DNA of 64,000 nt from Streptomyces sp. NBC_00335 (GTDB lineage Bacteria > Actinomycetota > Actinomycetes > Streptomycetales > Streptomycetaceae). The stretch's first letter is position 1, and each line of letters begins with the position of its first letter. Of this stretch, positions 3,224-22,005 are shown piece by piece. A model generated the notes under the pieces. That model saw only the letters and a program-made list of their open reading frames with translations, ran no database searches and was not told the origin of the DNA. The position numbers and the translations under genes were made by a program. The stretch lies in NCBI RefSeq assembly GCF_036127095.1, contig NZ_CP108006.1, positions 5,199,501 through 5,263,500 of the forward strand, written 5' to 3'.

Positions 3224-4144
3224 TTAGCTGCTGAGCTGGACCATGCTGTTGCCGTGCCGTGCCGCGATGGCATCCGGCAGGACGTAGGACCGAAGGAGCA
3301 GCCGCTCGCACTTGCCCGGCTGGATCGTGTCCCGGCCGTGTACACAGTGGTCATTGGGAATCAGCACCGACTCACCCTTGAGGATCGAGATGCCGTACTG
3401 CCGGCCGACCTCGAGGGCGGCGCGGCTCAGCTCGGTCAGGGCCTTCGACGCCCGCTCCCGCTCGGAGCCGTCGAGGCCGGCGGCCGGGGTGTACGTGCCG
3501 AAGTTGAGGCGGATCACCGGAGGCTTCCCCTCTTCTTCCACGAGCAGCTCCATACGCCGCACCCGCTCGTGTCCCCAGGACAGTGCCGATCCCGAACGGG
3601 CCTCGAAGTGCCGGAGTCGCAAGGCGTCCTTGGTGTCCTCGGACAGGACCGCGAGCACGTCGCGCGCCGGCGCCAGGAGCGTCTTCGGGACCTCCCCGGC
3701 AGCCACGTGCGGTACGAGCACCAGCGTGCGCGGGCGGCAGTTGTCGCTCGCCCAGGCGAGGTCGTTGTGCATGCTCAGCAGGTCGGTGCCGGAGCTCTTC
3801 TCCGACGAAAGCGTGGTCGGCCGGATGTCGGTGATGTACGAGTGGTTGTACTCGGCGTACGCGACGCAGGTCCCGATCGCTTCTCCGAGCAACAGGCAGA
3901 GGATCTTGCTCTTCTCGACGTCGTCGAACTGCGGCAGGTTCCGCACGTGCACGGGGTCCCCACCTGAAGCGGTGAACGCTGCGTCCACGAAGGGGAGTTC
4001 ACCGCGCACGTCGAGCTGCTGGCGTGCGTAGGAGAGATAGCGGAACTCGGTTTGGCCCGGGCAGTTCGCCAAGACCGTCTCGACGAGGTCGGTGAGACGG
4101 CTCTGATCCTCAAGCGTCAGGTCGAGGCTTGGCATGGTGCGCAT
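3224..4144 (-). CDS. Fe(II)/2-oxoglutarate oxygenase, clavaminate synthase/TauD superfamily
   Basis: 306 residues from an ATG at 4144 with AAAGGA upstream. The iron-binding triad is visible as H126-x-D128 in SMHNDLAW and H269 in CVHGRD, followed by R285 in LLLRSY, which would bind 2-oxoglutarate. This arrangement resembles amino-acid beta-hydroxylases of the clavaminate synthase-like group. Such enzymes hydroxylate or desaturate unactivated carbons, often of arginine, asparagine or lysine. It is probably cotranscribed with the downstream opine-type dehydrogenase. The substrate cannot be read from the sequence. Confidence 0.8.
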   Translation of the reverse strand: MRTMPSLDLTLEDQSRLTDLVETVLANCPGQTEFRYLSYARQQLDVRGELPFVDAAFTASGGDPVHVRNLPQFDDVEKSKILCLLLGEAIGTCVAYAEYNHSYITDIRPTTLSSEKSSGTDLLSMHNDLAWASDNCRPRTLVLVPHVAAGEVPKTLLAPARDVLAVLSEDTKDALRLRHFEARSGSALSWGHERVRRMELLVEEEGKPPVIRLNFGTYTPAAGLDGSERERASKALTELSRAALEVGRQYGISILKGESVLIPNDHCVHGRDTIQPGKCERLLLRSYVLPDAIAARHGNSMVQLSS

Positions 4145-4278
4145 GAAATGTCCTTTGTGCTGTGCCCATGGCGGATTGGTACGTCCATGGAGGTTCCGTT
4201 CGGCCTCGAAATCGGCCGTCATCGGAACGTCGGTGAAGGAGCGATGGCCGCCCGGTGGGGTCGCGGCCAGGGGGCGGC

Positions 4279-4306
4279 GCCCCGGCGGTGTTGGTCACGC
4301 CGGGGC
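4279..4306 (-). terminator. Possible terminator hairpin between the two oxygenase genes
   Basis: A 9-bp GC-only inverted repeat (4279-4287 with 4298-4306) with a 10-nt loop lies 36 bp downstream of the oxygenase gene ending at 4343. It could partly end that transcript before the next oxygenase gene at 4144. No T-tract follows, as is usual in Streptomyces. Confidence 0.4.
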
Positions 4307-4342
4307 GGGGACGGCAGTGATGGATGGTGGGCCTGGACGAGG

Positions 4343-5308
4343 TCAGGCGAACGCGACGAAGACCTGACGCTCGCCGCTGTAGGGCCGCCGGCCGTGCATC
4401 GCCGCGCGGTTGTCGACGAGAAGCACGTCACCGGCCTCCCACTGCACCGGCACCTCGCACTCGTTCAGCGTGCGCTGCACCAGTTCCATGTACTCGCTGG
4501 GGATCTCGCTACCGTCCCCGAACGTGGCGCCGTATCCGATCCAGGTCTCCCAGCGCTCCATGTCCGTCACATCGGGAACGGTGCTGGGGTCCTTGCGCCA
4601 GATGTGGGTCTGGTTGAACCAGGCCTGGCGCTTGTCCGCGCCGACTTCGAACGTGCCGGGTGTCCGATTGGTGGTCAGAAGGCCGAGCGGAGTCCACTTG
4701 GCGGACGTGTAGCTGGCCCGGCAATGCTCCATGACCTCGTCCTTCGAGTCTGTCTCGAAGGTCTCCGCCCAGGACTTGATTCCACTGGGATCGCCCACCG
4801 CGTTCGGCAGGTGCTGGATGTAGGTGACCCCGCGGTCCCTGAAGGCCTCCCGGACCTCGGGCGGAAGCTCCGCGTACACGCGGCGGCCGTCCACGATCGT
4901 GGTCGCCCCGCCTTCCTCGGCCACCACGCTGCATCCGAAGATGAGCGTCCCAGGGTGCCAAGGGGCGTAAGACAGCTCGTTGTGCGCCCTTACGGCACGG
5001 GTCTTGTCGGGCCCGGAAGCGTTGTAGACCAGGCCTCTTTCCGCGTGGCGAGGGGCATCGCCGCCCTTGTAGGCCGCGAGCTCACCGAGCAGGCTGCCGG
5101 CGGCATCCTCGAACTCGTCGATCGACAGCACGCCGAATCCGCGGAAGAGCACGGCTCCGGTTTCTTGGAGAAGGCGCCCTGCCAGCTCTCGCTGCTCGGG
5201 TTCGAGATGTGCCAAGATTTTCGCCGGGTTCGACTCTTGTTGAGTCAATTGAACAAGCGAAGGGAACCCGGATGTGAATGAAACTGTTCCCGCGGTAATG
5301 CTTTCCAT
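4343..5308 (-). CDS. TauD/TfdA-family Fe(II)/2-oxoglutarate oxygenase
   Basis: 321 residues. Motifs are H109-x-E111 in RAHNELSY, the distal H305 in AAMHGRRPY and R314 near the C-terminus. The first carboxylate is Glu rather than the more common Asp; Glu variants occur in a SyrP-like subset of the family. Expected chemistry is oxygen- and 2-oxoglutarate-dependent hydroxylation of an amino-acid-derived substrate. It is the first gene of the leftward set, separated from the second oxygenase by 198 bp that contain a hairpin. No clear ribosome site precedes the ATG, so a short-leader or leaderless start is possible. Confidence 0.8.
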   Translation of the reverse strand: MESITAGTVSFTSGFPSLVQLTQQESNPAKILAHLEPEQRELAGRLLQETGAVLFRGFGVLSIDEFEDAAGSLLGELAAYKGGDAPRHAERGLVYNASGPDKTRAVRAHNELSYAPWHPGTLIFGCSVVAEEGGATTIVDGRRVYAELPPEVREAFRDRGVTYIQHLPNAVGDPSGIKSWAETFETDSKDEVMEHCRASYTSAKWTPLGLLTTNRTPGTFEVGADKRQAWFNQTHIWRKDPSTVPDVTDMERWETWIGYGATFGDGSEIPSEYMELVQRTLNECEVPVQWEAGDVLLVDNRAAMHGRRPYSGERQVFVAFA

Positions 5309-6500
5309 GCCAAAGACCGTATTTCATAAATTCGGGGCGCGATCGTGACCGCGGCCGTTGTGTGCCGTATCCCGGCAAGGCGGTCGACTGCGGCCTGGCA
5401 AGTGCTTCGACCCACCAGCGGTGGATGCTCGGGCCGGCTGTATGTGCAGGAGCCACGCCATGGGGCGGCGAACCGTCCCTGTGCTCCGGCATCTTCGCCG
5501 GAGTCGGGTAACCCTCGAAGCCCATCCCCGCAGGGGGGCAATGGAGGGGTTTCCTTCATCTTTCAGTAAACCGAGTCGGCTGAATGCGGCAGCTGCGGCC
5601 GTCCCGCCTCCGTCACATTCGCCGAGCGCGCCCAGAGGTGCTCCATCCGGGTCCGCATCCCTGCGTGGTCATCCCGGTCGACCTCCTTGGGGTGTCGGTG
5701 TGTGGTCTGTTCCAGTTACGACTGCAACCTGACACGTTGAGTGATGGTGAGTCAACAACCTCTCTGACCTGCAATTTCCTGCGATCCACCTCCTTGCGTG
5801 CAACATCATCTTTGCTGGGTGATGTCCTGAGTGACCCTCAATGTGCCGAGGTGGGTCGCCACGTCGAGGCGGAGCCGACGGGGGACTCGGCGGGGGAGTC
5901 GCGATGCGACGGATGTGCCTCAACCTCATTCTGTTGTGGGCTCGTTGGCCGGTCGAGCCGGCGAGTGTCGAGTGCGCCGAGCGCGCGGAGTGCGCGGGCG
6001 ATCCCTGTCGGGTGGCGTCATTCCGCCCACCGTCCTTGCGTGCGCCCGAGCTGCCGGATTCTTTACCCTGCATTGAATCGACGTCCGCATGGTGAGATAT
6101 CGGCACTGTTGTGGCGGCGGAGATCTGTCGTGAATCCGGCCAAGGCCGAGCGGTTTCCCGTAATGCTCGCGTGAATCGCCTGATGGATTTGGTGACTTTA
6201 TGGGGCAGGCGTAGCCCGTGAGGTGAAACCGGGGCGGGTCGGGCATTGCTGCACTTCAATGCCGACATCTCGCGGCAGGTTTGGCGGGGCGGGAGTCGGG
6301 GGCGGCGGCGATGTGGGCCGGACGGACCTCGGCTGTTCGTGGTCGCAACTCTTGTGGTTCCCGGGCCGGCTCCCGCTTGCCGTCCTGCATAGCCGCATGC
6401 AGAGTGCTCCGTGACTGAATATCCCATCGGTGGCCGACCGGCTGCCCGGCAGATGGGACGTACAGGATGTACGGAACTTAGGGGACGGAGGGGAAACAGG
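5309..6500. other. 1.2-kb stretch without a convincing gene
   Basis: Between the divergent accessory pathway and the RpiR-type regulator no frame has Streptomyces-like third-position GC over a useful length or matches a family. It holds a 7-bp hairpin (CTCCGGC at 5484-5490 with GCCGGAG at 5497-5503) in the upstream region of the leftward set. A 63-codon open frame at 5904-6095 has a GGGGGAG ribosome site but weak codon bias. Base composition is less GC-rich than the flanking genes. It looks like the boundary of an acquired cluster, or regulatory DNA. Confidence 0.5.
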
Positions 6501-7343
6501 ATGAGCGAGAGCCCTGCGGCCCGGCTGCAGAAGCTGTTCGAGGGGCACCGGCTGACGCCGACCCAGCGGCGCATCGCGCACTGCATGGTGCGCGGCGCGG
6601 CGGAGGTGCCCTTCCTGTCGAGCGTGGAGCTCGCCGAGCTGGCCGGGGTGAGCCAGCCGTCGGTGACCCGGTTCGCGGTGGCGCTGGGCTTCGACGGCTA
6701 TCCCGCGCTGCGCCGGCACCTGCGCGAAGTGGCCCCCGCCGAGCGGGCCGCGGGCGGGGAAGAGGACGCGTACAACGAATACCAGCAGGCCGTGCAGGGC
6801 GAGATCGAGAACCTGCGCCGGCTCTCCGCGATGCTCGCCGACCCGGCGCCGGTGCGGGAGGCGGGGCGGCTGCTGGCCGGGTCGAGCCCGCTGCCCGTAC
6901 TGGGGCTGCGCGCGGCCTCCTCGCAGGCGCGCGGGTTCGCGTACTTCGCCGCGAAGGTCCATCCGGACGTCCGGCTGCTCGACGAGGGCGGCTCGATGCT
7001 CGCCGACCGGATCGACGCGGCCGCGGGTGCCGGGGCCTCGGCCCTGCTGTGCTTCGCGCTGCCGCGCCATCCCAAGGAGGTCGCCGAGGCGCTGGAGCAC
7101 GCGCGGGGGGCCGGGCTGAGGGTGGTCACGGTCGCCGATTCGGCCTTCGCGCCGGTGGCCCGCCACTCCGACCTGCTGATCCCGGCGCCCGTCGGCACCG
7201 GCCTCGCCTTCGACACGGCGTGCGCGCCGATGCTGCTGGGGCGGGTGCTGCTGGAGGCGATGGCGGACGCGCTGCCGGACGCGCAGGCGCGGCTGGAGGC
7301 GTTTGACGCGCGGGCCGCGGCGCGGGGGCTGTTCGTGGAGTAG
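6501..7343 (+). CDS. MurR/RpiR-family transcriptional regulator (HTH plus SIS domain)
   Basis: 280 residues from the ATG at 6501, which has GGAGGGGAAACAGG upstream; an earlier in-frame ATG at 6411 lacks a ribosome site. The N-terminal helix-turn-helix lies around residues 30-75 (SVELAELAGVSQPSVTRFAV, then GFDGYPALRRHL). The remainder is a SIS fold of the kind that binds sugar phosphates. Members control sugar, amino-sugar or amino-acid catabolism. No adjacent operon on the same strand reveals its target; the nearest catabolic set is the hut operon about 4.5 kb away. Confidence 0.85.
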   Translation: MSESPAARLQKLFEGHRLTPTQRRIAHCMVRGAAEVPFLSSVELAELAGVSQPSVTRFAVALGFDGYPALRRHLREVAPAERAAGGEEDAYNEYQQAVQGEIENLRRLSAMLADPAPVREAGRLLAGSSPLPVLGLRAASSQARGFAYFAAKVHPDVRLLDEGGSMLADRIDAAAGAGASALLCFALPRHPKEVAEALEHARGAGLRVVTVADSAFAPVARHSDLLIPAPVGTGLAFDTACAPMLLGRVLLEAMADALPDAQARLEAFDARAAARGLFVE

Positions 7344-7422
7344 GCCGCCGGCCGGGTGGGGCTGTGGTCGTGGGGCTGGGGTCGTGGGCCTGCGGTCGGG
7401 TGGGCCTCGCGCGGGGGCGGCC

Positions 7423-8616
7423 CTAGCGGTAGTTCAGTTCCGCCAGCTCCGTGGCCAGGCGCTTGTTCAGTGCCGGGATGCGGGCGAGGAGCGGGAGCAG
7501 GGTGTTGCGTACGGCGCGCAGGGCGGGGTTCCGGGTGGTGGCGATCCGGGTCATCCGGTCGGTCAGCGCGACCACGCGCAGGGCAACGGGGCGTCGGGTG
7601 GCCTCGTAGGCGTCGAGGGCGTCGTCGGTGCCGGTGCCGGTGCCGGTGCCGGTGCCGGGTCCGGTTCCGGTTCCGGTGGTGAGGGTTGTGGTGAGGGCGA
7701 GGCCCAGGGCGTGGCCGTCCTGGATGCCGGTGTTCATGCCCTGGCCGCCGGCCGGGCTGTGTACGTGCGCGGCGTCGCCGGCGAGCAGCAGGCGGCCGGC
7801 GCGGTAGTGGTCCGCGACCCGGTGGTGGACCCGGAACCGCGAGGACCAGACGACCTCGGTGACGGTGGCCTGGGCGGGGGCGCGGGCGTCCAGCAGGGCC
7901 TGGATGAAGGGCAGGCCGGGCTCGGCGGGGGCGTCGTCGACGGTGGCGACCACGCGGTAGCGGCCTCCGGGGAGCGGGGCCACCACGGTGAGACCTGCGG
8001 CGGCGAAGGTGAGGGAGACCTCGCGGGGGCCCGGGGTCCAGTTCATCGTGATGTCGGCGAGGACGAAGGACTCCTCGTAGGCGCTGCCGGTGAAACCGAT
8101 CCCGGCGGCCTCGCGGACCGTGCTGTGCATCCCGTCGGCGCCGACGGCGTAGGCGGCGCGCAGGGTCTCGCCGGTGGCGGTGGTGAGGGTGACCCCGGCG
8201 GCGTCCTGGCTGACGGCGGTGACCTCGTACGGGCGGTGGACGTCGTGTCCGAGGGCGTGCAGCCGGCCGAGGAGCACGGCCTCGGTCTGGTCCTGGGGAA
8301 CCATCAGGGCGTACGAGTGGGCCGTGGGCAGGCCGTCGAAGCTGACGGCGGCGAGCGGCCGGGCGCCGTCGCGGATCCGGAACCGGGTGACGGCCGTGCC
8401 CCGCCGGACCAGCTCGGCGCAGGTGGCCGGGTCGAGCTCGTCGAGGACCTCCAGGGTGCGGGCGTGGACCACGGCGGCGCGGGAGGTGTTGGCGCCCTCG
8501 GCCTGCCGGTCCAGGAGGACGAAGTCGATGCCGGCCCCGGCGAGGGTCAGGGCGAGGGTGAGGCCGGTGGGGCCGGCGCCGACGATGGCGACGTGGGTGG
8601 TGGCGGGGAGCGACAT
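7423..8616 (-). CDS. FAD-dependent aromatic-type monooxygenase
   Basis: 397 residues from an ATG at 8616 with a strong AGGAGGA site. The N-terminal FAD-binding motif reads VAIVGAGPTGLTLAL. The second FAD motif is seen as LLAGDAAHVHSPAGGQGMN near residue 280. This is the class A flavoprotein hydroxylase fold (p-hydroxybenzoate or pentachlorophenol hydroxylase-like). It is divergent from a TetR-family gene and shares a promoter region with four operator-like sites, so it is probably the repressed target, perhaps for detoxification of an aromatic compound or antibiotic. A (GGTGCC)n-like simple repeat within the gene at about 7627-7670 encodes a Gly/Thr-rich run. Confidence 0.85.
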   Translation of the reverse strand: MSLPATTHVAIVGAGPTGLTLALTLAGAGIDFVLLDRQAEGANTSRAAVVHARTLEVLDELDPATCAELVRRGTAVTRFRIRDGARPLAAVSFDGLPTAHSYALMVPQDQTEAVLLGRLHALGHDVHRPYEVTAVSQDAAGVTLTTATGETLRAAYAVGADGMHSTVREAAGIGFTGSAYEESFVLADITMNWTPGPREVSLTFAAAGLTVVAPLPGGRYRVVATVDDAPAEPGLPFIQALLDARAPAQATVTEVVWSSRFRVHHRVADHYRAGRLLLAGDAAHVHSPAGGQGMNTGIQDGHALGLALTTTLTTGTGTGPGTGTGTGTGTDDALDAYEATRRPVALRVVALTDRMTRIATTRNPALRAVRNTLLPLLARIPALNKRLATELAELNYR

Positions 8617-8636
8617 CTTTGTTCTCCTCCTGGATG

Positions 8637-8721
8637 CCAACGGGTGTTGGCCAACGACTGTTGACCTAAGGATGCGGTGGTGGAGGTGGCATGTCAACGG
8701 TTGTTGGCCTACGGTTGTTGG
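8637..8721. promoter_or_regulatory. Four 14-bp operator-like sites between monooxygenase and TetR genes
   Basis: Four copies of a CCAAC-N4-GTTGG-like palindrome lie in two directly abutting pairs: CCAACGGGTGTTGG (8637-8650, perfect) with CCAACGACTGTTGA (8651-8664), and TCAACGGTTGTTGG (8694-8707) with CCTACGGTTGTTGG (8708-8721). The last site ends one base before the TetR ATG. The first pair covers the promoter side of the monooxygenase. This is a textbook layout for autorepression plus control of the divergent gene by the TetR protein. Confidence 0.75.
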
Positions 8722-8722
8722 C

Positions 8723-9307
8723 ATGACGCGAGACGGAGTGGCAGGGGTGGCGGGGGAGACCCGGGGCGGGCAGACCAAGGCGGCGATCCTGCGGGCGGCG
8801 CGGGAGCGGTTCGCTGCGCAGGGGTACGAGCGGACGACGATCCGCGGCGTCGCGGCGGACGCGGGGATCGACCCCTCGATGGTGATGCGGTACTTCGGCA
8901 GCAAGGAGCGGCTCTTCGATGCGGCCCTTGCGGTGGATCTGCGGCTGCCTGATCTGTCGGGGGTTGCGGTGGGGGAGCTGGCGCAGGTGCTGGTGCGGCA
9001 CTTCGTGGAGCGGTGGGAAGGTGATCCGGCGGATGATGCGCTGCTCGTGCTGTTGCGCTCCGCGGTGACCAATGAGGCGGCGGCGGCGCGCATGCGGGAG
9101 GTTTTTGCGACCCAGGTCGCGCCGGCGCTGGCGGGGGCGCTCGGGGTGGAGCGGGGGCTGCGGGTGGCGGGCCTGGTCTCCACCCAGCTCCTGGGGCTGG
9201 CCCTGACCCGCTACCTGCTGCGGCTGCCCCCGATGACGGCGCTCTCGCCGGAGGCGGTGATCGGGGCGCTGACCCCGGTGCTGGAGGCGACGCTGTCCAC
9301 CCCGTGA
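8723..9307 (+). CDS. TetR-family transcriptional repressor
   Basis: 194 residues. The N-terminal helix-turn-helix is visible as TKAAILRAARERFAAQGYE followed by TTIRGVAADAGIDPSMVMRYF and GSKERLFDAAL (residues 17-65). The C-terminal part is helical with an Actinobacteria-type ligand domain ending LALTRYLLRLPPMTALSPEA. The ATG at 8723 directly follows the last palindrome, with no room for a ribosome site, so the transcript may be leaderless. It probably represses itself and the divergent monooxygenase; the ligand is unknown. Confidence 0.9.
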   Translation: MTRDGVAGVAGETRGGQTKAAILRAARERFAAQGYERTTIRGVAADAGIDPSMVMRYFGSKERLFDAALAVDLRLPDLSGVAVGELAQVLVRHFVERWEGDPADDALLVLLRSAVTNEAAAARMREVFATQVAPALAGALGVERGLRVAGLVSTQLLGLALTRYLLRLPPMTALSPEAVIGALTPVLEATLSTP

Positions 9308-9331
9308 TCCCCGGGCGGGGCCGGGGGTTCG

Positions 9332-10169
9332 CCTCAAACGCCGGCGGGGCTGTGTTGTGGCGGGCGTCTGTGTGTATGTGGGGCGGGCTGCGGTGGGTCG
9401 GTGCCGGGGCCGGGGTGGGGTGTCGGCCTGGACTGCATGATTTAGGCGCCCTCTGCTCTACTCCGACAGGGTGCGGGTTGCTCCAGCGCCACAAATCACG
9501 CTCTACGTCCAGGCCAACACCCCACCCCGTCCCCGTCCCCGCCCCGCCGGGCCCGTCCCCTCCGACTCCGGCCCCGCCGGGTCTGTCCCCTCCGACTCGG
9601 GCCCCGCCGGGTCTGTCCCCTCCGACTCGGGCCCCGCCGGGTCTGTCCCCTCCGACTTGGGCCCCGCCGGGTCTGTCCCCTCCGACTCGGGCCCCGCCGG
9701 GCCCGTCTCCTTCGGCCCCGCCGGGTCTGTCCCCTTCGGCTTCGGCCCCGCCGGGCCCGTCTCCTTCGGCTTCGGCCCCGCCGGGGGTTGAACTTTCAGC
9801 CGCCCGGAGCCGGATCCTTCCAGCCGTCTGGGCCATTCCAGCTCCGCCGGGGTTTGTCTTTTCAGCCGTCCGGCGTTTGAGGACCGGGGTCTGGGGCGGA
9901 GCCCCAGGGGTCCGGGCGCAGCCCGGGACCCCGCTTTCAGCCCGTCCGGCGTTTGAGGACCGGGTCCGGGCAGCGCCCGGGGGTATCCCCCAGCCCGTCC
10001 GGCGTTTGAGGACCGGGGTTCGGGCAGCGCCCGGGGGTATCCCCCAGCCCGTCCGGCGTTTGAGGACCGGGTCGGGCAGCGCCCGGGGGCATCCCCCAGC
10101 CTCGTCGGCGTTTGAGGCGCGGGTCCGGGCAGCGCCCGGGGAACGGTGGAAGGGCGGGTAGGGGACTTC
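9332..10169. repeat. Dispersed GGCGTTTGAGG repeat family, first locus
   Basis: The gap 9308-10419 has no convincing gene and is mainly repeats. Copies of a CCGGCGTTTGAGG core occur at about 9332 (inverted), 9863, 9938, 9991, 10045 and 10097. From 9938 they form a tandem array of roughly 53-bp units in which the core alternates with GGGCAGCGCCCGGG. The array ends in a segment reading ACGGTGGAAGGGCGGGTA near 10144, which recurs at about 51158 and 61815. Long open frames here are low-complexity products of the repeat. Confidence 0.75.
9541..9790. repeat. 30-bp minisatellite, about eight units
   Basis: Units starting GCCCCGCCGGG begin at 9541, 9571, 9601, 9631, 9661, 9691 (shortened to 24 bp), 9715, 9745 and, partially, 9775. 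The first five are nearly identical; later ones change the CTCCGACTC part to CTTCGGCTTC. Because 30 is a multiple of three, several frames stay open (Pro/Ser/Gly-rich peptides), but no start with a ribosome site or known domain supports translation. Confidence 0.85.
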
Positions 10170-17614: not shown

Positions 17615-17650
17615 ACGCCGCAGACCGCCCCCGGGGGCGGTCTGCGGCGT
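17615..17650 (+). terminator. Terminator after hutI
   Basis: A 17-bp perfect inverted repeat (17615-17631 with 17634-17650; in practice about 15 bp with a small loop), almost entirely G and C, lies 17 bp after the hutI stop. Strong stem without a T-tract, typical for Streptomyces. Confidence 0.8.
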
Positions 17651-17775
17651 ATGGACGGGCTGTTGATACGGCGCCGTCCTTTGTCTTCCCTCCGTAAGGC
17701 CCCGGGGCTACCTTGAGCCACCAATCTGATGTGCCGTCAGTAACTTGTGGCCCAAGGTTCGAGGGGAAGACGAAG

Positions 17776-18450
17776 GTGTCCGACCGGAAACGTTCCACCG
17801 CGCTCGCGCTGGCCTCCGCGCTGGCGGGGGCGGCGGTACTGCTGGCCGCCCCCGCAGCCCATGCGGCCGTTGTCGACGTCCAGTACGACTGCAAGACCCC
17901 CATCGGCCCCAAATCGGCGGTCTCGCCGATCGAGATCAAGGGGGTCAAGGAGGGCAACGGCTACAAGCTGACGATGTCCTTCCAGAAGGGCGTCTCCTCC
18001 AGCCCCATCGAGCTCGGCAAGGGTGCGATGACGCCCAGTGCCGTGATCATGCTGGACGGCGCGGAGAAGGTGTCGGTACCGGTCTCCGGTCCGCCCAACT
18101 CCGAGGCCGTTCCGGCCAATACGCCCATCAAGATCAGCGACCTGTCGGGCACGTACACGCCCAAGAAGTCCGGCAAGGTGACGCTCACCGCGGGCGTGCT
18201 CACGATCAAGGCGATGGGTACGACCACCACCTGCACGGCGGGCAACAGCCCCAAGCCGTCACTCGAACTCGACGTGACGGCCGCCGGCGGCAGCGCCACC
18301 GGTTCGACCGGCTCCACCGGGGACAGCCTCCCGCAGACCGGCCCCGAGGACTCCGCCATAGCCCTCGGAACCCTCGGCGCCACCGTGATCCTCTCCGGCG
18401 CCGCAGGCGTGCTCTGGCTGACCCGGCGCGGCCAGCGGGCCGGGTCCTGA
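17776..18450 (+). CDS. Secreted cell-wall-anchored protein with LPQTG sortase signal
   Basis: 224 residues from a GTG at 17776 with GGGGAAG upstream. A signal peptide covers about residues 1-31 (cleavage after AAHA). One extracellular domain of about 120 residues is bounded by C39 (in VQYDCKTPIG) and C153 (in TTTTCTAG), which could form a disulfide. A Gly/Ser/Thr linker follows. The C-terminus has LPQTG at 185-189, a hydrophobic stretch and a positively charged tail (RRGQR), the classical sortase substrate layout. The same domain recurs in the gene at 20686-22005. Function unknown; first gene of a four-gene surface set. Confidence 0.85.
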   Translation: MSDRKRSTALALASALAGAAVLLAAPAAHAAVVDVQYDCKTPIGPKSAVSPIEIKGVKEGNGYKLTMSFQKGVSSSPIELGKGAMTPSAVIMLDGAEKVSVPVSGPPNSEAVPANTPIKISDLSGTYTPKKSGKVTLTAGVLTIKAMGTTTTCTAGNSPKPSLELDVTAAGGSATGSTGSTGDSLPQTGPEDSAIALGTLGATVILSGAAGVLWLTRRGQRAGS

Positions 18451-18467
18451 ACGGAGCGCACCCGGTC

Positions 18468-19502
18468 ATGCCCGTGCTCCCCTCGCCCCGAAGGCCCGGC
18501 GGGTTCCTCCTCGCCGCCGTCGCCGCCGTGGTCACCGCCGTGCTCTCCTGCGCGATGGCGGCCCCGGCCGCCGCCGACGGGCCCGGCTGGACCGCCGAGC
18601 CCGCCGCCGGGACTGCGCCGGCGGCGGCGAAGGCCGGGGCCCGCCCGTACTTCTACCTCTCGGGTCCCTCCGGCACGGTGCTGGAGGACCGCCTCGCCCT
18701 GGTCAACACCAGCGACCGGGAGCACACCGTCACCCTGCGGGGAGCCGACGCCTACAACACGGCGGCCGGCGCCTTCGCGGTGCGCTCGGCCAAAGAGTCC
18801 ATCGGCGCGGGCCTCTGGATCAGCTTCGGCGCGGGCACCACGGTCAAGGTCCCGGCGCGCACCCGCGCCGTGGTCCCCTTCACCGTCACCGTGCCGCCCG
18901 GCTCCCCGCCCGGCGACCACCCGGCCGCCGTCGTCGCCACCGAGTCCGGCCGCGAGGTGGGCGTACGGGTCCACTTGCGCGTCGGCGGCCCGGCGCTGGC
19001 GGCGCTCACGGTCGAGGACGTCTCCGTACGGGGCAAGGGCGCGACCGCGCGCGTCGCGTACGCCCTGGTCAACCGCGGCAACGTGGCCCTCGCCCCCGAG
19101 CTGGTCATCAGCGCCGAGGGAACCCTCGGCAAGGTCGCGGGCCGCAGCGCCCGCACCCTGCCGGTCGAGGTGCTGCCCGGCCAGCGCGTGGAGCTGACCG
19201 AACCCTGGCCGGGCGCGCCCGTGTTCGACCGGGTCGCCCTGACCCTCACCGTGACGGCCCCCGGCGGCGCCCGCGCCACGGGGAGCACCTCGGCCTGGTT
19301 CGTGCCCTGGGGGATCGCGGGCGCGACCGGCCTCGGGCTGCTGGGCCTCGGGGCCGTCGCGGCGGCCGCCCTGCTCCTCGAACGCAAGCGGCGGATCTGG
19401 TCCGGCAGGTCTGGACCGGGGTCCGCGCCCGCGCCGCACGGGAGCGCCGTACCCGAAGAAGCCCCAGCGCCGGAACACGAGTTGACGGGAGCACCCAGGT
19501 GA
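18468..19502 (+). CDS. Secreted membrane-anchored protein, WxL-interacting/DUF916-like
   Basis: 344 residues beginning 18 bp after the previous stop. It has an N-terminal signal peptide (ending around AAPAAADG), two beta-rich extracellular regions and a single transmembrane helix near residues 280-305 followed by a basic cytoplasmic tail. The opening FYLSGPSGTVLEDRLALVNTS and VPPGSPPGDHPAAVVA segments resemble Firmicutes proteins that bind peptidoglycan and WxL proteins (DUF916 type); this is a judgement by eye. The start is not certain because the ribosome site is weak and a GTG lies 6 bp further. It overlaps the next gene by 4 bp, so the two are translationally coupled. Confidence 0.75.
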   Translation: MPVLPSPRRPGGFLLAAVAAVVTAVLSCAMAAPAAADGPGWTAEPAAGTAPAAAKAGARPYFYLSGPSGTVLEDRLALVNTSDREHTVTLRGADAYNTAAGAFAVRSAKESIGAGLWISFGAGTTVKVPARTRAVVPFTVTVPPGSPPGDHPAAVVATESGREVGVRVHLRVGGPALAALTVEDVSVRGKGATARVAYALVNRGNVALAPELVISAEGTLGKVAGRSARTLPVEVLPGQRVELTEPWPGAPVFDRVALTLTVTAPGGARATGSTSAWFVPWGIAGATGLGLLGLGAVAAAALLLERKRRIWSGRSGPGSAPAPHGSAVPEEAPAPEHELTGAPR

Positions 19503-20689
19503 GTGCCAAGGCCGGTGTGAGACACGGCGGCAAGGTCAGGGCCCTGGCCGCGGCGGGACGCGCGGGGCTGGCGGCGGGGCTGCTGGCGTGCGCGCTGGCG
19601 CTGTTCGCGGCGGCCCCGGCCACCGCGGACGACGGGGCCAAACCCGCCGTGGCCCTCTCGCTCAAGGAGGCCGCCAAGGGCACGGAGATAGCCGTGACCG
19701 GAACGGGCTGGCCGGCCAAGACCATGGTGATGCTGCTGGTCTGCGGGCAGAACATGATCGGCGGCACCAACAGCTGCGCCAACGCCGACGGGGTGGCCGT
19801 CTCGGTCGCCGACGACGGGCACTTCTCCGCCCAGCTCCCGGTGGTGGCCCCGCCCAAGCCCTGCCCCTGCGTGGTCAACGTGACCTCCGTCAACGGGGAC
19901 CAGTCCACCGTCGCGGCCCCGCTGAAGATCACCGACCACCCGGTGGCCGACCTGCCCGCCGAGGGCGGCACGGCCCGGCTCGCCCTGCTCACCGGGGTCC
20001 AGCTCAAGGGGGAGGACGGGGTGCTGACCTGGTTCGGGGCCCCGCCCGGCCGGAAGTTCACGGTCACCGTGGGCAATCTCGGCTCCGCGGCCGTCAAGGA
20101 CCCGGTCTTCCAGCTCGGCACCGCCCACGGGGTGTTCGCGCCGACCTGGGAAGAGGTCCGCTGGAAGGGCACCATCCCGCCCGGCGGCAAGGCGGAGGTC
20201 TCCCTCGACGCCACCCTGACCGCCGGCGCCCACGGCGACTACACCCTCTCCCTCAAGTACGGGGAGACGGTGCTGGCCACGCAGCCCTGGGGCGTGGCCC
20301 GCCCGTACGGGGTGCTGCTGTTCTGGGGCCTGCTCCTCCTGGTGGTCCCGGCCGCGATCTTCCGGATCGGCATGGCCGTCGTCGACAGGGTCCGCCCGCG
20401 CGAGTCCGGCCGCCACCGCGGCCACCGCCCGCAGCCCGACCCGGCGGCGGCGGTGACCGCCCGGCTGCCCAAGATCCCGGCGCTGCGGGGGCCCGCGCGG
20501 GGCTCCGTACGAGGAGGACCGCCGGCCCGCTCGGGCCCGGCGGCCGAACCCCCACAGACCACCACGGCGGTACTGCCGTGGTTCACCCCGGACAGCGCGC
20601 CGGGGACAGCAGCACCACCCGACGCACCACAGGCAGCACAGACGTCCGCACCGTCTGAGAACAGTCCGACGACGAAAGGAAAACTGTGA
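19499..20689 (+). CDS. Secreted membrane-anchored protein with N-terminal Ig-like domain
   Basis: 396 residues from a GTG overlapping the previous stop by 4 bp. A signal peptide ends near residue 42 (AAPATADDG). The first domain (about residues 45-140) contains VTGTGWPAKTMVMLLVCG and a later SNGDQST-like loop, a pattern seen in neocarzinostatin-like immunoglobulin folds, with several Cys residues that could pair. A second extracellular beta-rich region follows, then one transmembrane helix (around VLLFWGLLLLVVPAAIF) and a Pro/Arg-rich cytoplasmic tail. No catalytic motif is seen. Position and topology suggest a partner of the neighbouring anchored proteins. Confidence 0.75.
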   Translation: MSAKAGVRHGGKVRALAAAGRAGLAAGLLACALALFAAAPATADDGAKPAVALSLKEAAKGTEIAVTGTGWPAKTMVMLLVCGQNMIGGTNSCANADGVAVSVADDGHFSAQLPVVAPPKPCPCVVNVTSVNGDQSTVAAPLKITDHPVADLPAEGGTARLALLTGVQLKGEDGVLTWFGAPPGRKFTVTVGNLGSAAVKDPVFQLGTAHGVFAPTWEEVRWKGTIPPGGKAEVSLDATLTAGAHGDYTLSLKYGETVLATQPWGVARPYGVLLFWGLLLLVVPAAIFRIGMAVVDRVRPRESGRHRGHRPQPDPAAAVTARLPKIPALRGPARGSVRGGPPARSGPAAEPPQTTTAVLPWFTPDSAPGTAAPPDAPQAAQTSAPSENSPTTKGKL

Positions 20690-22005
20690 ACACCCAACGG
20701 AGGATGAGCGCGGCCGCGGTCGCGCTGCTTCTCGGCGGCGCGGGCATGGTGATGGTGGCCGCTGCCCCGGCCGGCGCGGCCGAGATCTCGTTCCCGACCG
20801 TGTGTGATCCACCGATCGGTAGCAACATCGAGGGGACGACCACGGCCGAGGTCACCGTGACGCCCGCCGAGGCCAAGGTCGGCGATGAGGTGGAGGTGGT
20901 CTGGAAGACCACCAAGGCGGCCTCGGACAACCCGGGCTACACGGATCTGGCGGCGAACTCCGTGACCCCGTCCGGGGTGATCAAGCTGGGCGGGGACGCC
21001 ACCGGCGAGCTGGCGGTGCAGGGCAAGGCGGAGAACCCGGCGATCCCCAAGAACTCGCCGATGGTGGTCACTCCCATGAAGGCGAAGCTCAAGCTGACGA
21101 AGGCCGGCACGGTCACCCTGACCCCGGCCTCGTACAAGATCAACGTGATGAGCACGGACACCGTGTGCACGGCCAAGGAGGGGACGACCGTCCCGGTCGG
21201 GGCCACGATCAAGGTGACCGGCTCGGGCGGCCCGGGCCCGTCGCCCAGCACCACGCCCCCCACCAGCCCGCCGCCCACCAGCAAGCCCCCCACCACCCCG
21301 CCGCCCACCACGGCTCCGCCCACGAGCCAGCCGCCCGCCAGCCCCTCGCCCTCCGCGTCCGGCGGGGGTCAGACCGACTTCCCGGGCCAGACCGTGGACG
21401 TCACCTTCGACTGCGGGTCCTTTATCCAGGGAGGCCCGCTCAAGGGCAAGGTGACGATCAACGCGAAGAAGAACGGCGGCACCTACGACCTGACCGCCAC
21501 CACCGCCAAGGGCGTGATGAACAGCCCCATGGACCTTCCGGCGGGAGCCCTCCAGCCCTCGATGGACATCAAGCTCGGCGGAGCCGACAGCGGGATCGTC
21601 AAGGTCAGCGGCCCGGGCAACCCCGAGCCGATCAAGGGGGGCGCACCGGTCAGCCTCAGTGACATGAAGGGCACCTACAAGCCCGGAAAGACCGGCAAGA
21701 CCACGCTGACCCCGGACAAGCTGACGATCAACGTGGTCATGGCCCCGGGCGCCGCCCCGATCGTGGTGCCCTGCGCCGCGACGGCCAGCTCGGTGTCGCT
21801 CACGCTGGACACCGCCGCCCAGCCCGGCGGCTCCGGCACCTCCGGCACCTCGGGCAGCGCCGCCACCTCCGGCGGCCTCGCCCAGACCGGAGCCTCGGAC
21901 GACGGCGGCATCAAGGCCCTGGCCCTGGTCGCCGGCACGGTCATGCTGCTCGGCGCGGCTGTCTTCACCTTCACCCCGTGGCGCCGCCTGCGCGGCCAGC
22001 GGTAA
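20686..22005 (+). CDS. Secreted two-domain protein with LAQTG sortase signal
   Basis: 439 residues from a GTG overlapping the previous stop by 4 bp; AAAGGA lies upstream. A signal peptide ends near residue 31. Two related Cys-bounded domains flank a Pro/Thr/Ser linker at about residues 180-225. The second domain (DVTFDCGSFIQGG to VVPCAATAS) clearly resembles the single domain of the protein at 17776-18450. The C-terminus shows LAQTG at 398-402, a hydrophobic segment and RRLRGQR. LAxTG is the motif attributed to class E sortases of Actinobacteria. No sortase gene lies in the window. Confidence 0.85.
   Translation: MNTQRRMSAAAVALLLGGAGMVMVAAAPAGAAEISFPTVCDPPIGSNIEGTTTAEVTVTPAEAKVGDEVEVVWKTTKAASDNPGYTDLAANSVTPSGVIKLGGDATGELAVQGKAENPAIPKNSPMVVTPMKAKLKLTKAGTVTLTPASYKINVMSTDTVCTAKEGTTVPVGATIKVTGSGGPGPSPSTTPPTSPPPTSKPPTTPPPTTAPPTSQPPASPSPSASGGGQTDFPGQTVDVTFDCGSFIQGGPLKGKVTINAKKNGGTYDLTATTAKGVMNSPMDLPAGALQPSMDIKLGGADSGIVKVSGPGNPEPIKGGAPVSLSDMKGTYKPGKTGKTTLTPDKLTINVVMAPGAAPIVVPCAATASSVSLTLDTAAQPGGSGTSGTSGSAATSGGLAQTGASDDGGIKALALVAGTVMLLGAAVFTFTPWRRLRGQR

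Follow-up and report, generated by a model that had tools for sequence, protein, structure and literature searches.

The window analysed here, a stretch of 64,000 nucleotides from Streptomyces sp. NBC_00335 (contig NZ_CP108006.1, positions 5,199,501 to 5,263,500 of the forward strand), contains four consecutive genes for predicted surface proteins, here called g1 to g4, and this locus raises the question of whether they represent an actinobacterial counterpart of the Csc clusters of Firmicutes, in which cscA encodes a DUF916 protein, cscB and cscC encode WxL proteins, and cscD encodes a small LPxTG protein (PMC1534035, PMC10599100). A preliminary description had proposed such a counterpart, and our analysis supports it as a kinship while refining it in two respects. 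First, clusters proper of WxL proteins and WxL-interacting proteins (WxLIP) are also present in actinobacteria, and the window operon looks derived from them, with the WxL domain gone; second, g3 is a neocarzinostatin-like membrane protein, and some of those clusters include it as well. We regard it as somewhat probable that the products of the operon form a wall-to-membrane surface complex descended from actinobacterial WxL clusters. The four genes are the following:

17776-18450, + strand: g1, GTG start, 224 amino acids; secreted, with one Cys domain and an LPQTG sortase signal
18468-19502, + strand: g2, ATG start, 344 amino acids; WxLIP-like membrane protein
19499-20689, + strand: g3, GTG start, 396 amino acids; neocarzinostatin-like membrane protein with a predicted cytosolic tail
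20686-22005, + strand: g4, GTG start, 439 amino acids; secreted, with two Cys domains and an LAQTG sortase signal

As first described, all four genes lie on one strand, a hydrophobic signal segment opens each protein, and 4-bp overlaps join three of the genes (g2/g3 and g3/g4), with g1 set apart by a gap of 17 bp between its stop and the ATG of g2. The arrangement goes beyond chance, and the genes are anything but rarely found together: of 101 Streptomyces genomes, 77 contain g1 (75 contain g2-like genes, paralogs counted in), and 60 of the 77 loci retrieved from the 76 genomes other than our own (G012 gave two) repeat the order g1-g2-g3-g4 and the strand, which with the window makes 61 of 77 genomes. 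In many Streptomyces genomes the operon sits at a single conserved location. Shorter forms occur as g1 and g3 only (seven genomes, G098 among them), g1-g3-g4 without g2 (two), g1-g2-g3 (four, two of these stopping at contig ends), and g1-g2 at a contig end (one), while in G046 g1 lies on a separate contig; of the four genes, g1 and g3 stay together most constantly, and g2 or g4 may be absent. In G012, g1 stands beside hutF/hutI, far from g2-g3-g4, in an apparent rearrangement that places it (L052, 5063-5740) about 2 Mb from the other three genes (L122, 3165-6537), which adjoin the POT transporter and response regulator genes; in G070 (L038, 5661-6865), a piece of g2 and g1 is repeated, inverted, between g2 and g1. 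Ranked by g3, the top 80 named loci, a set chosen for similarity among at least 567 relatives that is not an unbiased sample, include 74 with all four genes in order, and 79 of these relatives are titled Streptomyces and one "Actinobacteria bacterium". Among 246 genomes drawn class-wide, 23 yielded the Cys domain and 28 the g3 core; among the Streptomyces members of this draw, the identical 14 genomes carry both, and eight are listed without either.

The protein that most directly links the operon to the WxL systems is g2, in which two elements could be delimited:

18579..19307, + strand: two immunoglobulin (Ig)-like domains of g2 (residues 38-280), from structural alignment to WxLIP
19308..19403, + strand: C-terminal membrane helix of g2 (residues 281-312), from the hydrophobicity scan and the AlphaFold model

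The resemblance of g2 to DUF916/WxL-interacting proteins, already suspected in the preliminary description, is upheld by its paralogs and by its structure, yet its score against PF06030 (DUF916), given below, stays under the cut-off. In the structure comparison of the g2 model, the WxLIP chains of Enterococcus faecium (PDB 9i25/9i1y) rank 1 and 2 of 982, at 12-13% identity and a root mean square deviation of 4.9-5.5, so that, far from being structurally unrelated to the DUF916 type, g2 finds in WxLIP (DUF916-DUF3324) its closest structural match among the compared chains. The alignment spans both Ig-like domains, and g2 presents the WxLIP fold, namely, two Ig domains and a C-terminal transmembrane helix, although the partner of the enterococcal protein is a WxL protein, unlike in the operon of g2. 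The helix itself appears as the one C-terminal hydrophobic segment (residues 286-304) in a Kyte-Doolittle scan and as a single long helix (281-312) in the AlphaFold model. The earlier claim of a single transmembrane helix in both middle proteins holds for g3 (segment above threshold in 73 of 73 orthologs) and, for g2, is supported by the model, while the scan finds the segment in only 47 of 64 orthologs. By sequence, no HBD family (DUF3324/WxLIP_HBD) is among those listed for 61 g2 members. The possibility that g2 is a lipoprotein was rejected, since Cys28 is not conserved, 42 of 64 orthologs having no Cys after residue 25.

CscA proteins measure 320 to 380 amino acids, with an isoelectric point mostly >9, and CscD proteins 90 to 140 amino acids (PMC1534035). 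CscA and g2 have in common a basic DUF916-type character (isoelectric point of mature g2, 10.1), a C-terminal transmembrane helix, and a similar size, and both the Csc clusters and the window operon comprise secreted surface proteins only, with two wall-attached partners. Different from the Csc clusters, the window operon has no WxL domain, the proteins on its wall side bear a Cys domain and sortase signals, their lengths (224 and 439 amino acids) do not match CscD, and a neocarzinostatin-like membrane protein is added. Although it seems to function as a Csc cluster would, it falls outside the Csc class in three respects: the WxL domain, the size of CscD, and the PF06030 cut-off. According to a published proposal, WxLIP binds WxL on peptidoglycan, stabilises it, and stays bound, and a strand of its beta-hairpin is predicted to insert into WxL (PMC10599100). 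The proposed lasting binding bears on the best-surviving rival explanation, in which g2, and perhaps g3, would be membrane-bound assembly factors that keep g1 and g4 foldable or sortable until sortase acts, with no lasting complex. We consider it unlikely: besides the proposed persistence of WxLIP on WxL, the WxLIP matches of g2 lie about 5 Z units above the structural matches taken for this alternative, and 9 of the 77 genomes keep g1 in the absence of g2.

The two wall proteins show the following elements:

17869..18285, + strand: Cys domain of g1, with no Pfam family
18328..18342, + strand: LPQTG of g1, read from the sequence
20782..21219, + strand: Cys domain 1 of g4, nearest to the N-terminal domain of WxL proteins
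21220..21381, + strand: Pro/Thr/Ser-rich linker of g4, read from the sequence
21382..21816, + strand: Cys domain 2 of g4, nearest to g1
21877..21891, + strand: LAQTG of g4, read from the sequence

The sortase signals noticed at the outset in g1 and g4 proved to be strict, with LPxTG in 74 of 74 g1 orthologs and LAxTG in 63 of 63 g4 orthologs, after removal of 15 rows of unfitting length (12 of them g1-sized matches of the g4 query) and of two false g1 rows. Sortase substrates are recognised by the motif, a hydrophobic segment, and a basic tail; g1 also passes model TIGR01167 (23.8 bits, cut-off 15.9), and g4 qualifies by motif and hydrophobic segment, without passing the model. These motifs suggest that both proteins are cleaved by sortase and linked to the wall; no sortase-like match was found in the 64-kb window. 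The sharing of a Cys-bounded domain, also proposed beforehand, was confirmed with hhalign (g1 versus domain 2 of g4, E value 5.5e-47, 43% identity; versus domain 1, 2e-36, 27% identity), and two Cys columns are invariant in 47 of 47 chosen Cys domains. Moreover, domain 1 of g4 matches the N-terminal domains of WxL proteins (E value 1.1e-33, 39% identity). In the control, hhalign gave no match between Cys domains and the WxL domain, and PF13731 (WxL) has no match to either wall protein at E 1.

Two such proteins might also act on their own, as a surface coat in which g2 and g3 have no part. In Actinoplanes missouriensis, the cwpA/cwpB operon encodes two SrtE-anchored proteins with LPVTG motifs, which change hyphal surface properties and control exploration and sporangium formation (PMC13251363), and the four Cys of CwpA (44, 146, 213, and 292) resemble in layout those of g4 (40, 161, 243, and 363). 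However, the likeness is one of layout and description; neither g1 nor g4 is markedly hydrophobic in its mature form (grand average of hydropathy, -0.10 and -0.18); and the gene overlaps and conserved order tie g2 and g3 into the operon, whereas the available part of PMC13251363 mentions no DUF916-type or g3-like partner. A coat of g1 and g4 alone is, in our view, quite unlikely.

The kinship with WxL clusters emerges most clearly from the relatives of g2. The own genome holds four g2 matches. Besides g2 itself, these are three paralogs (L031, L032, and L033) that score above the PF06030 cut-off, each next to a protein with a WxL-like domain at its end and no sortase signal; the WxL scores of these neighbours are 18.8, 21.8, and 22.6 bits, all under the cut-off of 25. 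PF13731 matches 11 of 13 WxL-like partners of paralogs at E 0.1 and, other families counted in, 20 of 20 excised domains (best E value 5.9e-10). The Cys domain heads the WxL protein in L032, L033, and most other inspected Streptomyces loci; no match to it was found at the start of the WxL protein in L031, L034, L036, L037, L049, and L050. Furthermore, window-type operons left aside, a g3-like gene accompanies WxLIP and WxL in 11 loci (L033, L272, L273, L274, L275, L277, L279, L280, L281, L282, and L283), of which L275, L277, and L279 are near-identical and L281 and L282 each combine a pair of WxL proteins with a single WxLIP and a single g3-like gene. The WxLIPs of L272 (31.5 bits), L275 (33.7), L282 (46.4), and L283 (38.0) pass PF06030. 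L284 and L285 have a g3-like match without WxLIP or WxL, L286 has a partial g3-like match only, and three weak g3-like matches (f31 and, twice, f14) were left out of the inspection. In these clusters, the WxLIP and the g3-like protein are homologous to those of the window, and in L033 and L272 the WxL protein also begins with the Cys domain; different from the window, the WxL domain is kept, and the inspected WxL proteins have no sortase signal. A sortase gene adjoins the WxL cluster in L272 and the Cys-domain protein in L287.

In the WxLIP tree (40 rows), the 15 window-type g2 sequences form one group (100/100), nested in a set of 28 rows (98/96), the remainder of which adjoin WxL proteins (for L035, the scored neighbour is that of its close relative L032). 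Since a WxL partner is present on the other branches, loss of the WxL domain in the window-type group is the simplest reading, and the tree together with the shared Cys domain suggests its replacement by sortase anchors, the direction of change depending on a midpoint root. The g3 tree (30 rows) also has the window type as one group (98/100), with long branches elsewhere.

Some of these loci showed further peculiarities. The WxLIP paralog runs in frame, with no stop, into GTPase Era in L032 (4900-7386) and L035 (4940-7171), and Era lies downstream as a separate or unfused gene in L041, L042, L044, and L047; DUF916-Era combinations or fusions occur in certain Streptomyces (PMC10582724). In L049 (5778-10231) and L050, the WxL domain terminates a purple-acid-phosphatase-like protein adjoining the WxLIP, and L049 has a HupE-like membrane protein beside these genes too; DUF916 near HupE and metallophosphatase genes, and such neighbours for Ang-2, have been reported (PMC12537917). 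The fourth gene of the L033 cluster (7872-9659) encodes, by eye, a membrane part and an ABC-like C-terminal half, with no Pfam match at E 0.1. In G245 (L287, L288, and L289), Cys-domain proteins without a clear LPxTG adjoin class F-like sortase genes (the one in L287 alone was scored, with PF04203), an arrangement that can be likened to AMIS_11010/AMIS_36440 beside srtF1/srtF4 in A. missouriensis (PMC13251363). Finally, L276 encodes a 915-amino-acid protein (3308-6055) with two weak Cys-domain matches and an LPNTG end, and a membrane protein (7159-7863) resembling, by eye, the one beside the L272 WxL cluster (9401-10108).

For g3, three elements were located:

19673..19843, + strand: neocarzinostatin-like stretch of g3 (residues 59-115), PF00960 22.2 bits, cut-off 25
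20312..20368, + strand: membrane segment of g3 (residues 272-290), from the Kyte-Doolittle scan
20573..20584, + strand: LPWF motif, kept in 69 of 73 orthologs, within the g3 tail predicted to be cytosolic

The protein is laid out as a neocarzinostatin-like head, a second conserved, Ig-like region, one transmembrane segment, and a variable tail, and many of its close homologs carry a precomputed PF00960 label. With L221 added, LPWF is absent in 5 of 7 g3 orthologs from loci without g2 and g4 versus 0 of 67 others (Fisher 1.3e-6, uncorrected for kinship). The head is similar in sequence to the neocarzinostatin/enediyne chromoproteins, under both curated cut-offs (besides PF00960, NCBIfam model NF040680 at 36.4 bits, cut-off 86), whereas membrane anchor, second Ig-like region, and cytosolic tail set g3 apart from them. 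These scores and four Cys invariant across the g3 alignment would suit a mechanism of ligand capture, in which the wall proteins offer a small hydrophobic molecule to the head, which binds it, while the tail signals or passes it on, but the PDB sequence matches of the g3 profiles include none supporting a chromoprotein pocket and the operon has no transporter or enzyme, making this very unlikely. The idea of four unrelated adjacent surface genes, with g2 a generic Ig-like protein as its family's weak FixG_C, NPCBM_assoc, DUF7507, and fn3_5 matches might suggest, is already disfavoured and highly improbable in view of the conserved gene order and overlaps, the ranking of the WxLIP fold over other Ig pairs, and the linkage of g2 paralogs to WxL proteins.

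As for the wall-to-membrane complex that we favour, g2 is demonstrably kin to WxLIP, the domain shared by g1 and g4 to the head of WxL proteins, and g3 to a member of WxL clusters, and the anchor motifs are strict; complex formation and a surface role are what we propose beyond kinship and architecture. Judging from their motifs, g1 and g4 would be exported and then covalently fixed to peptidoglycan by sortases; g2, a protein with two Ig domains held in the membrane, would dock them in a manner similar to that of WxLIP with WxL proteins; and g3, as a second membrane protein, would join the assembly, its tail with LPWF reaching the cytosol. The window lineage would have lost the WxL domain and substituted sortase anchors. 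The likeliest role would be that of a tether or organiser of the hyphal envelope surface, which we put first because CwpA/CwpB, the closest sortase-anchored pair yet studied, has the developmental functions mentioned above.

Several points weigh against this explanation. PF06030 gives g2 18.9 bits, under the cut-off of 27.3, and a g2-type profile searched against PDB sequences reaches WxLIP at an E value of 0.054, behind a GBS repeat at 4e-5. Docking by g2 may involve the lost WxL domain rather than the Cys domain, the partner in the solved pair being a WxL protein. Furthermore, g2 is not required everywhere: of the 77 genomes, seven retain just g1 and g3, and another two retain g1, g3, and g4. 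Lastly, the comparison of LPWF between loci with and without g2 and g4 is uncorrected for kinship.

A bolder form of the same proposal, which we advance as a tentative and rather doubtful one, is a trans-envelope tether, in which the wall-linked pair is clipped by the WxLIP-like receptor and coupled through g3, with its cytosolic LPWF motif, to intracellular growth or signalling machinery; if true, this would amount to a WxL complex in which sortase anchors serve as the new base and a cytosolic arm is added.

Upstream of g1, an alignment of 75 upstream regions revealed the following:

17680..17740, + strand: conserved upstream block, probably a promoter or regulatory element
17725-17740, + strand: palindrome TCTGATGTGCCGTCAG closing the block

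Within the block, TCTGA occurs in 74 of 75 regions and CCGTCAG in 57 of 75. The palindrome type, CTGAYGnnCCRTCAG, has 17 genome-wide sites at <=1 mismatch (reversed control, 2), and similar palindromes lie near the 5' side of several WxL genes (L041 8110, L042 3737, L044 8062, and L047 3578). A surface-gene regulon was rejected: the palindrome is not specific to surface genes, because other inspected sites (L211-L220 left out) adjoin P450, thiolase, and acyl-CoA genes. The hutI-g1 interval contains a long GC-rich inverted repeat (17616-17649), terminator-like by eye, although it lacks a run of T; no terminator was listed by the consensus scan. By sequence reading, without family scan, two hut genes flank the operon on the 5' side, and a POT transporter gene (opposite strand) and a response regulator/sensor kinase pair on the 3' side.

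In the available open-licence literature on DUF916/WxL in Streptomyces, Actinobacteria, or actinomycetes, and in that on neocarzinostatin with LPXTG, no account of the operon was found, although a report elsewhere is possible. The WxL/Csc literature consulted is centred on Firmicutes; a Streptomyces operon is now tied to this system, and WxL + WxLIP clusters are extended to further actinobacterial families. The operon offers a natural case in which the WxL wall anchor was seemingly swapped for sortase anchors while the membrane partner was retained. In Streptomyces, losing both class E sortases blocks sporulation (PMC5148588), and partners can now be proposed for sortase substrates of uncertain role in this genus, with the LPWF motif in the tail of g3 as a concrete handle for seeking a cytosolic partner.

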